Below are positions 14,181-44,588 of a DNA stretch of 64,000 nt, one piece after another. Positions within the stretch are counted from its first letter, which is position 1, and each line of letters starts with the position of its first letter. Both the position numbers and the translations under genes were made by a program. The notes beneath the pieces are model-generated. The model saw nothing but the letters and a program-made list of their open reading frames with translations. It did not search any database and was not told the origin of the DNA. This DNA is from an uncultured Anaerolineales bacterium. GTDB lineage: Bacteria; Chloroflexota; Anaerolineae; Aggregatilineales; Aggregatilineaceae. The stretch lies in NCBI GenBank assembly GCA_937135955.1, contig CAKZOB010000073.1, forward strand, positions 1 to 64,000, in the 5' to 3' direction.

Positions 14181-14189
14181 TCGCTCAGG

Positions 14190-14568
14190 TGGAGGTGGGG
14201 GGAATTGAACCCCCGTCCGCAAGATTCGGGCACAAACGTCTACAAGCTTAGCCAGCTTCTCAGTTTCGCGCGAGGCAACCCAAACTGGCGGAGGTTGTCC
14301 GCGCGCTAGCCGATGAGTCTTAGCTGCTGCGTATCGGCGTCAGTGCAGCGCATCCTGTCCTTTGTGACGCCTGCTTGCCGCCCGGACAGGAGACGGTCGG
14401 GGCAGACGGATACCCCGCAGGGTATCGGTTTGTCCGCCTGGCGACTACGCGGCCAGGGCGAGACGGGAAGTGCTGTTGGCACTTATAGGTGTGCTCTGGA
14501 TTAACGAGGGTAGAGCGCCTCGGCTTGCAGTCTGTGACCAACCTCCCACGTCGAAGCCAGTCACCCCC
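14190..14568 (-). ncRNA. ssrA: Transfer-messenger RNA (tmRNA)
   Basis: On the minus strand the RNA begins GGGGGTGACTGGCTTCGACG, the conserved tmRNA 5' end. It ends with the T-arm GGGGG-TTCAATT-CCCCC and acceptor CACCTCC plus A; the 5' GGGGGTG and 3' CACCTCC halves pair (one G-U). CCA is not encoded. The tag frame (14480-14445) after ATAAGT reads ANSTSRLALAA and then TAG, with the typical LALAA end that targets proteins to ClpXP. Length 379 nt is normal. tmRNA rescues stalled ribosomes. Confidence 0.97.
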
Positions 14569-38430: not shown

Positions 38431-41034
<2,604 letters not shown>

Positions 41035-42000: not shown

Positions 42001-42831
42001 TCAGCCGTTGCGCTTGAGTTTGCCCGTGCGCTTGGTATATCGTTCGGCGCGCTGGAACAGGTAGATGCCCAGCGGCAACATCACCACCCCCATGATCAAC
42101 AGGGGCCACACATAGCTGAGCGGGTCGGCGGTTGCCGTAGCGGGTAGCAATGCTGCCCGCATCCCCTCCAGCACATACGTCGCCGGCGAGATTTTCGCCA
42201 GAGTCTGCAGCCAGCCTGGCAGCACGCTGACCGGATAGTAGATGCCGGACACCAGCAGGAAGAACGCCTGCACGATGTTGGTCATCTGCGCGCCGCGTTC
42301 CGGGTAGAGCAGCGGCAGGATAGACGCCACCACTCCGATCCCTACAAACGACAGGCTACCCACCAGCAGGATGACCGTCGCCGCGACGAAATCCGCGTCG
42401 GCAAAGCTCAGGTCGAAGAAGGCCGCCACGACCACCCCGATGAGCACCGTGAAGACCAGGCTATAGACGATGGCGAAGATCGTCTGCCCGATCATCTGAT
42501 TGAAGCGGCGCACGGGGGCCATGAAGGTATATTCGATAGTGCCTTCCCAGCGTTCCCAGGCGATCATCTCGCTGATGTTGTTGAAGATGCTGGCCAGAAA
42601 GCGCCATACCAGGGTGCCGATCAGCAGATAGGTGATCAGGAAATTGGTGTCAATCTGCGTTTCGCCGGTGATCTCCGCCGCGCCCGCCCCGATGAAGGTC
42701 ACCGAAAGCGAGTTGGCGATGGAGTAGGCCAGCCAGACGACTTCCCAACCCCAGTAGCGTTTGACCAGGTTGAAGTTGCGCGCCACGAACGCATAGGACT
42801 GGCGCATTTCGAGTTGCAAACCTTTGATCAC
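42001..42831 (-). CDS. ABC-2 type exporter permease (DrrB-like)
   Basis: 276 residues, six membrane spans. FLASIFNNISEMIAWERWEGTIEYTFMAPVRRFNQMIGQTIFAIVYSLVFTVLIG and SGIYYPVSVLPGWLQTLAKISPATYVLEGMRAALL are characteristic of ABC-2 permeases of the drug/lipid-export class. GTG start with GGAGG upstream. It partners the ATPase at 42942-43868. The substrate is unknown. Confidence 0.9.
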   Translation of the reverse strand: MIKGLQLEMRQSYAFVARNFNLVKRYWGWEVVWLAYSIANSLSVTFIGAGAAEITGETQIDTNFLITYLLIGTLVWRFLASIFNNISEMIAWERWEGTIEYTFMAPVRRFNQMIGQTIFAIVYSLVFTVLIGVVVAAFFDLSFADADFVAATVILLVGSLSFVGIGVVASILPLLYPERGAQMTNIVQAFFLLVSGIYYPVSVLPGWLQTLAKISPATYVLEGMRAALLPATATADPLSYVWPLLIMGVVMLPLGIYLFQRAERYTKRTGKLKRNG

Positions 42832-42941: not shown

Positions 42942-43868
42942 CTAAGACAACACCTTCTCCGGCTCGAAGTCGGTCACATCGTCCTTTTCCACCAGTTCCT
43001 TGCCGGTCAGCGCCATGAAGACATCTTCCAGCGTCGGCTCGTGTCCGTTGTGCTGCACCAGGCGCTTGAGGCCCGCCGGTGTGTCCAGCGCGACGATCTT
43101 GCCGTCGTCGAGAATGGCGATGCGGTCGCACAGGGCATCGGCTTCGCTCATGTCGTGCGTGGTGATGAGAATCGTCGCGTCGTGCGTATCGCGCAGTTCA
43201 TTGACGAACGCCTGCACTTCCAGCTTGGAACGCGGGTCGAGGCCGGTCGTCGGTTCGTCCAGCAGCAACAGCACTGGCTGTGTCAGGAAGGCGCGCGCGA
43301 TGGCAACCTTCTGCTGCATCCCGCGACTCATGTCCTCCATGGGGCTGGTGTAGCTGCTCTCGCGCAACCCCAGCCGGCCCAGAATCTCGCGGGCCTTGCG
43401 GTCGGCCTCTCTGCCGGAGACGCCGTACAGCCGCGCTCCATAGAGCAGGTTCTCCTTGGGACTGAGCTTCTTGAAGAAGGCCGCTTCCACCGATACGCGG
43501 TTGATCAACCGCTTGACGGCCATCTCGTCTCGCTCCACGTCCAGCCCGAAGACGGTGATCGTCCCCTCGTCCGGCAGCAGCAGCGTGGAGAGCAGGCGGA
43601 TCAGCGTGGATTTGCCCGACCCGTTTGGCCCCAACACGCCGAAGATTTCGCGCCGGTAGACGGTGAAGGAGACATGATCCACGGCGGTGACCACTTCCTT
43701 GCCGCGTCGAGCTTTGGGTTGAGCGGAAGCAGGGGTGCCGTGCCCGTTGACCGATTTCTGGACGCCGACGAGCCGTCGCCACCACGGTTCTGACGCCACG
43801 TTGAAGCGCTTGACGACATTATTGACGATCAGCGCCGGTTCCTGAGTGGAGATATGTTTCTCCATCAT
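42942..43868 (-). CDS. ABC exporter ATP-binding protein (DrrA-like)
   Basis: 308 residues. Walker A GPNGSGKSTLIRLL, signature MSRGMQQKVAIARAFL, Walker B LLLLDEPTTGLD and H-switch (TTHDMSEAD) are complete. The C-terminal segment AGLKRLVQHNGHEPTLEDVFMALTGKEL is typical of DrrA/CcmA-like exporter ATPases. GAGGAAAA precedes the ATG (43868; an adjacent ATG at 43865 is possible). The upstream region carries a leader ORF with terminators (see 43945-44223). Confidence 0.92.
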   Translation of the reverse strand: MMEKHISTQEPALIVNNVVKRFNVASEPWWRRLVGVQKSVNGHGTPASAQPKARRGKEVVTAVDHVSFTVYRREIFGVLGPNGSGKSTLIRLLSTLLLPDEGTITVFGLDVERDEMAVKRLINRVSVEAAFFKKLSPKENLLYGARLYGVSGREADRKAREILGRLGLRESSYTSPMEDMSRGMQQKVAIARAFLTQPVLLLLDEPTTGLDPRSKLEVQAFVNELRDTHDATILITTHDMSEADALCDRIAILDDGKIVALDTPAGLKRLVQHNGHEPTLEDVFMALTGKELVEKDDVTDFEPEKVLS

Positions 43869-43944: not shown

Positions 43945-43975
43945 AGAAAAAAGCCGCGAGCTGGGTGCCCGCGGC
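43945..43975 (-). terminator. Second leader terminator (T2) before the ABC exporter
   Basis: On the minus strand GCCGCG (43975-43970) pairs with CGCGGC (43958-43953), followed by TTTTTTCTT (43952-43944 region). It is 77 bp before the exporter ATPase start. Confidence 0.8.
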
Positions 43976-44014
43976 TGCTGTTGGCAGTTGCCGGACTCTG
44001 GACGAGTCTCTGGC

Positions 44015-44043
44015 AATAAAAACCGCGGGCATTGCGCCCGCGG
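44015..44043 (-). terminator. First leader terminator (T1) before the ABC exporter
   Basis: On the minus strand CCGCGGGC (44043-44036) pairs with GCCCGCGG (44030-44023) around GCAAT, followed by TTTTTATT. It lies 25 nt after the leader ORF stop, the spacing of classic attenuators. Confidence 0.85.
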
Positions 44044-44068
44044 CCAGGTCCCTTGCTGAAAGGGTATC

Positions 44069-44161
44069 CTAACGGCGAACAGGCGCAATACGACAAGGCA
44101 TGTGCCCGGTGGGAATACCATCGAGGCAAACGCGCAGAGCAAAGACGACGGTGTTGTCCAT
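44069..44161 (-). CDS. Short leader ORF (30 residues) of a putative attenuator
   Basis: ATG at 44161-44159, stop TAG at 44071-44069. The peptide starts MDNTVVFALRVCLDGIP and ends PCRIAPVRR. AAGGAG lies 10 nt upstream, and a TTGACA/TATACT promoter precedes it. Two terminators follow before the exporter genes. No run of a single amino acid is seen, so amino-acid starvation sensing is unlikely; drug- or ribosome-stalling control is an alternative. It is also possible that the transcript is a small RNA or peptide gene in its own right. Confidence 0.5.
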   Translation of the reverse strand: MDNTVVFALRVCLDGIPTGHMPCRIAPVRR

Positions 44162-44193
44162 ATTGCGCCTTCTCCTTTCTATAGGATGGGCGC

Positions 44194-44223
44194 AGTATAT
44201 CATGGGCGGAGCGGGGATGTCAA
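44194..44223 (-). promoter_or_regulatory. Strong sigma-70-type promoter of the leader
   Basis: On the minus strand TTGACA (44223-44218, perfect), an 18-nt spacer and TATACT (44199-44194, 5 of 6). The start should be near 44187, giving a ~170-nt leader to T1. Confidence 0.82.
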
Positions 44224-44230
44224 GCAGTTT

Positions 44231-44588
44231 TTAACATCGGGGTATATTTCACAAAAGGTCACGGTCGGCTGAGAATACATCAGACCTGATTTGAGGGGTG
44301 CGCGCAAACTGTGACAGGCCGTTTGCTGCGCTGTGGTCTATCTACCTCACCCCCCAGCTTCGCTGCGCTCGGCTTGCCCCCTCTCCGACGCGGGGAGGGG
44401 GCAGCGAGGCGCGCCAGCGCCGAGCGGGGGTGAGGTCAACGCCTCCGCGCCGGGCACATCGCTGAGGAGCCTTGCTCGCACTCAGTTTGAGGGGGCATTT
44501 CGCAAAAGTTCACCCCAGAGCACGGCTTCAGAAATCCGCCTCAGTTCGCTTGCACTCGTGAACTCAACTGAAATGCACCCTTAACATC
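44231..44588. mobile_element. MITE-like element, copy B (342 bp) with 8-bp target duplication
   Basis: TTAACATC at 44231-44238 and at 44581-44588 flank the element 44239-44580. Its ends are imperfect inverted repeats: GGGTATATTTCAC...GTCAC at the left and, inverted, GGGTGCATTTCAG...GTTCAC at the right. The interior contains the ACCTCACCCCC/GGGGGTGAGGT palindrome (44344-44436) and shares the right ~150 bp with copies A and C. It has no coding capacity. It lies 8 bp from the -35 box of the leader promoter and 40 bp from the CRP-like site of the fds operon. Confidence 0.85.

Follow-up and report, generated by a model that had tools for sequence, protein, structure and literature searches.

A predicted ribosome-mediated transcription attenuator upstream of a DrrAB-like exporter operon, representative of a leader family in the class Anaerolineae

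Introduction

To our knowledge, leader-peptide attenuators of resistance genes have been described mostly in Firmicutes and as single cases. The bmrBCD (PMC4191407), msrD (PMC10314930), and mef(E)/mel (PMC4335068) systems are established examples of transcriptional readthrough driven by ribosome stalling. In the bmrB-bmrCD system of Bacillus subtilis, a multidrug ABC exporter is preceded by a leader ORF that is translated, by stem-loops that form alternatively, and by an intrinsic terminator, and drug-induced readthrough requires translation (PMC4191407). The locus described here, located on the minus strand of a 64,000-nucleotide stretch of DNA from an uncultured Anaerolineales bacterium (the whole stretch being referred to as the window), is similarly organized; however, bmrB carries its terminator within a 53-codon ORF, whereas the terminators of the present locus, T1 and T2, are positioned beyond a 30-codon ORF. 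Furthermore, bmrB represents a single locus, whereas the Anaerolineae leader, known from sequence, constitutes a class-wide family associated with several kinds of gene.

The mef(E)/mel and erm(K) systems also rely on a stalled ribosome for transcription attenuation, the anti-attenuator being formed by distal repeats, and erm(K) resembles the locus in possessing two adjacent Rho-independent terminators (PMC4335068). Their +x+ peptides, MTASMRLR and MTHSMRLR, are reminiscent of the R-x-R motif of related leaders that precede DrrA-like exporter genes (PMC4335068). These are, however, Firmicute systems with peptides of 8 to 14 codons, whereas the antiterminator arm of the Anaerolineae leader is coded within the peptide C-terminus, which is conserved across unrelated genes. 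In the case of msrDL, a drug-stalled ribosome on the leader peptide prevents formation of a Rho-independent terminator located before a resistance gene (PMC10314930), and the target kind is shared, as ABC-F genes are also found among the targets of the Anaerolineae leaders. In contrast, MsrDL comprises only six residues, stalls at the stop codon, and obstructs the terminator directly, a role that is here predicted to be fulfilled by a helix between two RNA arms, B and C (B:C).

Arrest peptides of the SecM/RAPP type are also short and, like the leader peptide, have a variable segment followed, close to the C-terminal end, by an Arg-x-x-Pro core (PMC10951233, PMC12992588); in these peptides, the Arg precedes the P-site residue by two positions and the A site is occupied by Pro (PMC10951233). 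They differ in that the P-site residue would here be Ala rather than Pro or Gly, in that the targets are of the resistance type rather than secretion genes, and in that the core codons of the Anaerolineae leader double as an RNA pairing arm. Our best reading of these comparisons is that the way of working would match that of bmrBCD, mef(E)/mel, erm(K), and msrDL, and that the family is probably new. Within the open-access literature, no relevant papers on such leader peptides in Chloroflexi, Chloroflexota, or Anaerolineae were found. We propose, with a probability of about 0.83, that the element is a ribosome-mediated transcription attenuator of the DrrAB-like exporter operon and one of a class-wide Anaerolineae family.

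Anatomy of the leader locus

The near-consensus promoter, the ribosome-binding site with its 30-codon leader ORF, and the tandem intrinsic terminators that had been recognized in the initial annotation were all recovered (Table 1). The promoter, whose −35 (TTGACA, 44223-44218) and −10 (TATACT, 44199-44194) boxes are separated by 18 nt, is the sole promoter-like site on the minus strand between positions 41000 and 46000. The identification of the next genes as a DrrAB-like ABC exporter was likewise borne out by HMM matches, the scores of which fell below the curated NCBIfam cut-offs for drrA (245.7 versus 312 bits) and drrB (50 versus 223 bits); the products failed the drrA/drrB family membership test and are probably best described as DrrAB-like.

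Table 1. Features of the leader locus and downstream genes (positions within the window)
Feature	Positions	Strand	Remarks
Promoter TTGACA-18-TATACT, extended −10 TG	44194..44223	-	11/12 consensus match
Shine-Dalgarno AAAGGAG of leader ORF	44172..44178	-	in all family leaders
Arm A (AGGCGCAATA), RBS-start spacer and start codon; partner of B	44161..44170	-	perfect 10-nt inverted repeat
Leader ORF, 30 codons, MDNTVVFALRVCLDGIPTGHMPCRIAPVRR	44069..44161	-	ORF in all family leaders; C-terminus conserved in relatives' ORFs
Leader codons 10-12, R-V-C	44126..44134	-	position of R-x-R in related leaders; conserved Arg 12 codons downstream
P-C-R-I-A-P codons, conserved peptide C-terminus, enclosing arm B	44081..44098	-	
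Arm B (TATTGCGCCT), switch arm common to A and C	44081..44090	-	codons of peptide C-terminus
Small hairpin CCCTT/AAGGG between stop codon and T1	44050..44064	-	comparable short hairpins in related leaders
Terminator T1 (C:D), then U tract	44021..44045	-	11 pairs
Arm C (CGGGCGCAAT), formed by T1 5′ arm and loop; pairs with B (antiterminator) or D (T1)	44031..44040	-	
Arm D, T1 3′ arm, complementary also to T2 5′ arm (E)	44022..44030	-	D:E −19.7 kcal/mol in window
Terminator T2 (E:F) with U tract	43946..43976	-	hairpin 43976-43952, 10 pairs
DrrA-like ABC ATPase, first downstream gene	42942..43868	-	TIGR01188 drrA 245.7 bits; PF00005
DrrB-like ABC-2 permease, second downstream gene	42001..42831	-	PF01061 67 bits; TIGR01247 drrB 50 bits

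This arrangement is more than chance, because the leader folds with a z of −5.7 relative to shuffled sequences and the same order of promoter, RBS, ORF, T1, and T2 recurs in other genomes of the taxonomic family, 5′ of the orthologous exporter genes. At the Rfam gathering score, no known family was detected at the leader locus, the only matches in the window being tRNA and a tmRNA gene (RF00023; positions 14187-14568, minus strand). A palindromic REP-like element (CCTCACCCCC...GGGGGTGAGG) is located at 44344-44436, just upstream of the leader promoter, and similar C-rich palindromes are found between T1 and the gene in leader L054 and near the gene in L082.

Distribution of the leader family

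Most genomes of the taxonomic family to which the window belongs encode orthologous exporters (75 to 92% identity), nearly all of them preceded by the leader; in the window's own genome, the search identified a single copy of the leader. A covariance model (CM) constructed from 12 same-family leaders produced matches in 31 of 61 relatives, in 143 of 396 genomes of the class (E ≤ 0.01), and in 20 of 400 genomes of the phylum (E ≤ 1e-5), all but one of the latter belonging to the Anaerolineae; CM matches L045 and L078, which were without an ORF or inside genes, were treated as false. When 84,980 bacterial and archaeal species were scanned with a DNA pattern, 91 stretches were recovered, every one from Chloroflexota and nearly all from Anaerolineae, including Anaerolinea thermolimosa and Levilinea saccharolytica. 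In total, 162 unique leaders were collected; the C-terminal peptide motif could be located in 143 of these, which formed 95 sequence clusters. The leader thus appears to be a member of a previously undescribed attenuator family that is class-wide in the Anaerolineae. Genome G007 harbors four leader copies (L072, L073, L079, and L022) with different genes downstream.

Alternative helices and their conservation

Two pairings not included in the initial annotation, namely the inverted repeat formed by arms A and B and the complementarity of B to the T1 loop (the pairing sequence in arm C, spanning the T1 5′ arm and loop, being GGGCGCAAT), connect the ORF to the terminator. Because B pairs with either A or C, and C with either B or D, the A:B, B:C, and C:D (T1) helices are mutually exclusive. 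Folding of the window's leader yielded A:B and T1 for naked RNA, T1 with a ribosome at the stop codon, and, with a ribosome held upstream, B:C, which persisted at full length with D present. When folding was performed by ribosome position, B:C formed before D was made in 92 of 94 leaders, and a B:C helix of at least 6 bp preceded D in 97% of leaders, as opposed to 40% when B was shuffled in place; masking of B resulted in T1 formation in all 94. At equilibrium, T1 is favored over B:C in 64 of the 94 leaders, and antitermination in those must therefore be kinetic.

In the class alignment, two-sided changes were apparent at seven of nine A:B pairs and at all eight pairs of the main T1 helix. For A:B and T1 combined, such changes affected 17 of 19 pairs (0/500 shuffles), and 93.8% of alignment cells were paired, compared to 31 to 51% in slid versions; the shuffle counts overstate significance, given that the structural model had guided the fitting of this alignment (A2) and that the copies are related by descent. 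Because of this fitting, an alignment-free swap test was also applied, in which the pairing energy of a leader's own arms is compared with that of arms swapped between leaders. For A:B and B:C, the test was restricted to CM-found copies, since pattern-found copies had been selected on the sequence of A and B. It returned a z of −5.8 for A:B and of −4.9 for B:C (0/2000 in each case, class leaders), while a control stretch from the middle of the ORF gave +1.0. Within the taxonomic family, covariation of B:C could not be demonstrated by column counts because B is nearly invariant there, and the class-wide swap test was used instead.

The arm pairs of individual leaders include GGCGTACAA/TTGTACGCC in L066 and GATGCACT/AGTGCGTC in L061, and in L056 and L093 B pairs with the T1 loop in a shifted register. 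Antiterminator and terminator helices that exclude one another, as in an attenuator, are conserved in relatives of the locus. Conservation of the ORF and terminators in related genomes, to which the initial annotation had pointed as a check, is class-wide and accompanied by compensatory changes. Arm A is missing from leaders L043, L083, L085, L090, and L096, although their peptide C-terminus is retained and their T1 is still complementary to B. As some distant members do not possess arm A, the A:B step is not universal.

Promoters and regulated genes

Upstream of the leader, a promoter matching the consensus at 10 or more of 12 positions was present in 63 of 89 class leaders, compared to 5 of 89 shuffled sequences, and the promoter type of the window also precedes the leaders of the family orthologues. 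Between T1 and the gene, a sigma-70-type consensus scan detected no promoter of at least 10/12 in 88 leaders. The possibility of a separate strong promoter between T2 and the exporter, also raised in the initial annotation, was assessed in the window by the same type of scan, the best match being just 7/12. As expected of an attenuator, the structural genes appear to be without a promoter of their own.

Downstream sequence was available for 91 independent copies, and in 87 of these the leader lies ahead of a gene for a homologue of one of 19 downstream proteins, predominantly DrrA-like ATPases (27), MsbA-like exporters (22), and GNAT acetyltransferases (30), and more rarely ABC-F (2), HAD (3), and RIO-domain (3) proteins. 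These classes were assigned via homology to seeds from the same loci, and representatives of each kind were named by HMMs; the ABC-F proteins of L076 and L083 scored above the NCBIfam cut-off for ribosomal-protection-like ABC-F. Among solved structures, one acetyltransferase and the ATPase had matches, all of them distant, and no drug could be assigned. Judged by these gene kinds, the regulated set may represent the content of a response to ribosome-targeting compounds.

The leader peptide

The leader peptides terminate in P-x-R-[SIN]-A-P-x-x-[R/H]-stop. Within this motif, the Ala-Pro codons GCG CCT are fixed at every codon position, as expected of an RNA arm. The codon of the conserved Arg carries 1.08, 1.33, and 0.35 bits at its three positions, and this conservation at positions 1 and 2 but freedom at position 3 implies that the amino acid itself matters, which would indirectly favor translation of the leader.

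Further upstream in the peptide, the R-x-R motif, known as +x+ from macrolide-dependent stalling on MefAL and ErmDL (PMC10314930), is enriched in the leaders of DrrA-like exporters, where it was observed in 13 of 27 leaders (4.3 expected) and, exactly 12 codons before the conserved Arg, in 8 of 27 (0.25 expected); among GNAT leaders, no such excess was found. Based on geometry, a ribosome stalled at R-x-R would leave B uncovered. The motif occurs in 9 of 13 same-family leaders, the four without it including that of the window, whose peptide fails the +x+ macrolide-leader test as it reads R-V-C and contains no Arg/Lys-x-Arg/Lys. In the closest relative, G014, the corresponding residues are R-T-R, so that macrolides as inducer of the window's leader are a guess, and the inducer is uncertain. 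Leader L071 has C-A-C at the R-x-R position, where its neighbors L051 and L084 have R-x-R; loss of R-x-R by Arg-to-Cys replacement seems to be recurrent.

Proposed mechanism and alternative explanations

The assignment of the element as a transcription attenuator of the exporter, as put forward in the initial annotation, is strongly supported by the exclusive helices, the compensatory changes, the conserved gene linkage, and the lack of an internal promoter. Computation has established the anatomy, the presence of alternative helices that are conserved and covary, and an association with likely resistance genes; we further infer that the ORF is translated, that a ribosome may stall upon it with a drug as inducer, and that T2 is disarmed along with T1. 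Unhindered ribosomes would complete the 30-codon ORF and halt approximately 10 nt beyond B, which would then be covered, thus allowing C to pair with D; T1 would form and transcription would end. Absence of translation is predicted to permit A:B pairing, again with formation of T1. If a ribosome were held mid-ORF, for example by an antibiotic in the exit tunnel, B would be free to pair with C before D is made, thereby blocking T1. The released D may in turn pair with the 5′ arm of T2 (E), weakening T2 also, and with both terminators disarmed the polymerase would reach the exporter genes. Drug-induced readthrough of this kind, likewise suggested initially, would be in keeping with the regulated gene kinds and with the R-x-R enrichment among relatives.

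A stand-alone gene for a small peptide or an sRNA had been raised as an alternative; the element would then end at T1, T2 would serve as a backup, and the exporter would be unrelated. The strength of the promoter and terminators and the partial conservation of the peptide would suit such a gene; nevertheless, this explanation is disfavored and very improbable, as the element stays 5′ of several unrelated gene families across the class, the 88 leaders examined are without a promoter between T1 and the gene, and the complementarity of B to the T1 loop would be purposeless. The role of T2 is more evenly balanced. A second terminator is located at most 90 nt from T1 in 66 of 94 leaders, and D:E complementarity is genome-specific (class-wide swap test z −13), its mean of −17.4 kcal/mol being near that of T2's own folding (−19.0 kcal/mol). 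The chances that T2 is only a duplicated backup, resembling T1 through duplication or gene conversion rather than by virtue of a D:E antiterminator, fall a little short of even. C:F is complementary too (z −9.2, mean −16.0 kcal/mol), an outcome to be expected from duplication alone, but D:E is the stronger of the two in a paired comparison (Wilcoxon p 0.006), which may be regarded as modest evidence for function, and the loops of T1 and T2 differ.

Two further explanations concern the peptide and the signal to which it responds. If P-x-R-[SIN]-A-P were an intrinsic pausing motif of the SecM/RAPP type, the peptide would be a working part in addition to the RNA: the ribosome would be parked on B with the switch in the OFF state, and relief of the pause or a stall further upstream would turn it ON. 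The conserved Arg codon described above, together with conservation of the Pro and of the residue preceding Arg, argues for selection on the peptide; R-x-A-P can be aligned with R-A-G-P and R-A-P-P (PMC10951233), and members without arm A retain the motif. However, systematic mutagenesis of RAPP peptides showed that Pro at the P site, where Ala would be situated here, can be replaced only by Gly, and that Ile and Asn fall outside the tolerated second residues (PMC12992588); moreover, Ser-Ala-Pro is fixed by the RNA arm as well, and approximately one-fifth of CM-found members have Cys, Thr, Leu, Gln, or Gly in place of Arg. We consider intrinsic pausing of this type unlikely. Membership of the RAPP/SecM arrest peptides was rejected, the core being R-[SIN]-A-P rather than R-A/G-P-P or R-A-G-P, and a P-site Ala having abolished arrest in the RAPP peptides tested (PMC12992588). 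It is somewhat less doubtful, if still not probable, that the leader is a general sensor of translation rate that responds whenever ribosomes are slowed, whether by starvation, poor charging, or anything else, rather than specifically to drugs. Outside the DrrA leaders, the central part of the peptide varies greatly, the GNAT leaders show no R-x-R excess, and bmrBCD answers several ribosome-targeted antibiotics as well as rare codons (PMC4191407). Against this stand the fixed 12-codon distance of R-x-R, the lack of codon runs for any one amino acid, and targets that are exporters, ABC-F proteins, and acetyltransferases rather than biosynthesis genes. Amino acid attenuation of the trp/his type was rejected, given that the peptides are without codon runs and the targets are not biosynthetic.

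Implications for resistance-type genes in Chloroflexota

Under the proposed attenuation mechanism, there is perhaps an even chance that a single Anaerolineae cis-acting cassette places many unrelated ribosome-drug resistance genes under ribosome control. In such a cassette, the C-terminal P-x-R-[SIN]-A-P motif would be the conserved module, its codons including the antiterminator arm, and would be combined with N-terminal sensor peptides that are exchanged to suit the gene (R-x-R in the case of exporters) and with two terminators in series, both of which would be opened by one event. An architecture common to many Chloroflexota species and several resistance-type gene families would be akin to a class-wide, protein-free counterpart of a drug-response regulon, and the leader would predict which uncharacterized exporters, acetyltransferases, HAD proteins, and RIO proteins answer ribosome-targeting compounds. 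Comparison of leaders would also make it possible to test how the sensor peptide relates to the drug class, and the family offers a clean case in which an RNA arm and a peptide motif are specified by the same codons.

A RIO-domain (kinase-fold) gene follows the leader in L022, L057, and L096, being located between the leader and a DrrA-like gene in L022; the encoded protein could be a drug phosphotransferase. A recurrent gene pair was also observed in L062, L063, L066, L067, L090, and L103, in which the leader is followed by a HAD-hydrolase gene and then, where the sequence extends sufficiently, by a GNAT gene.
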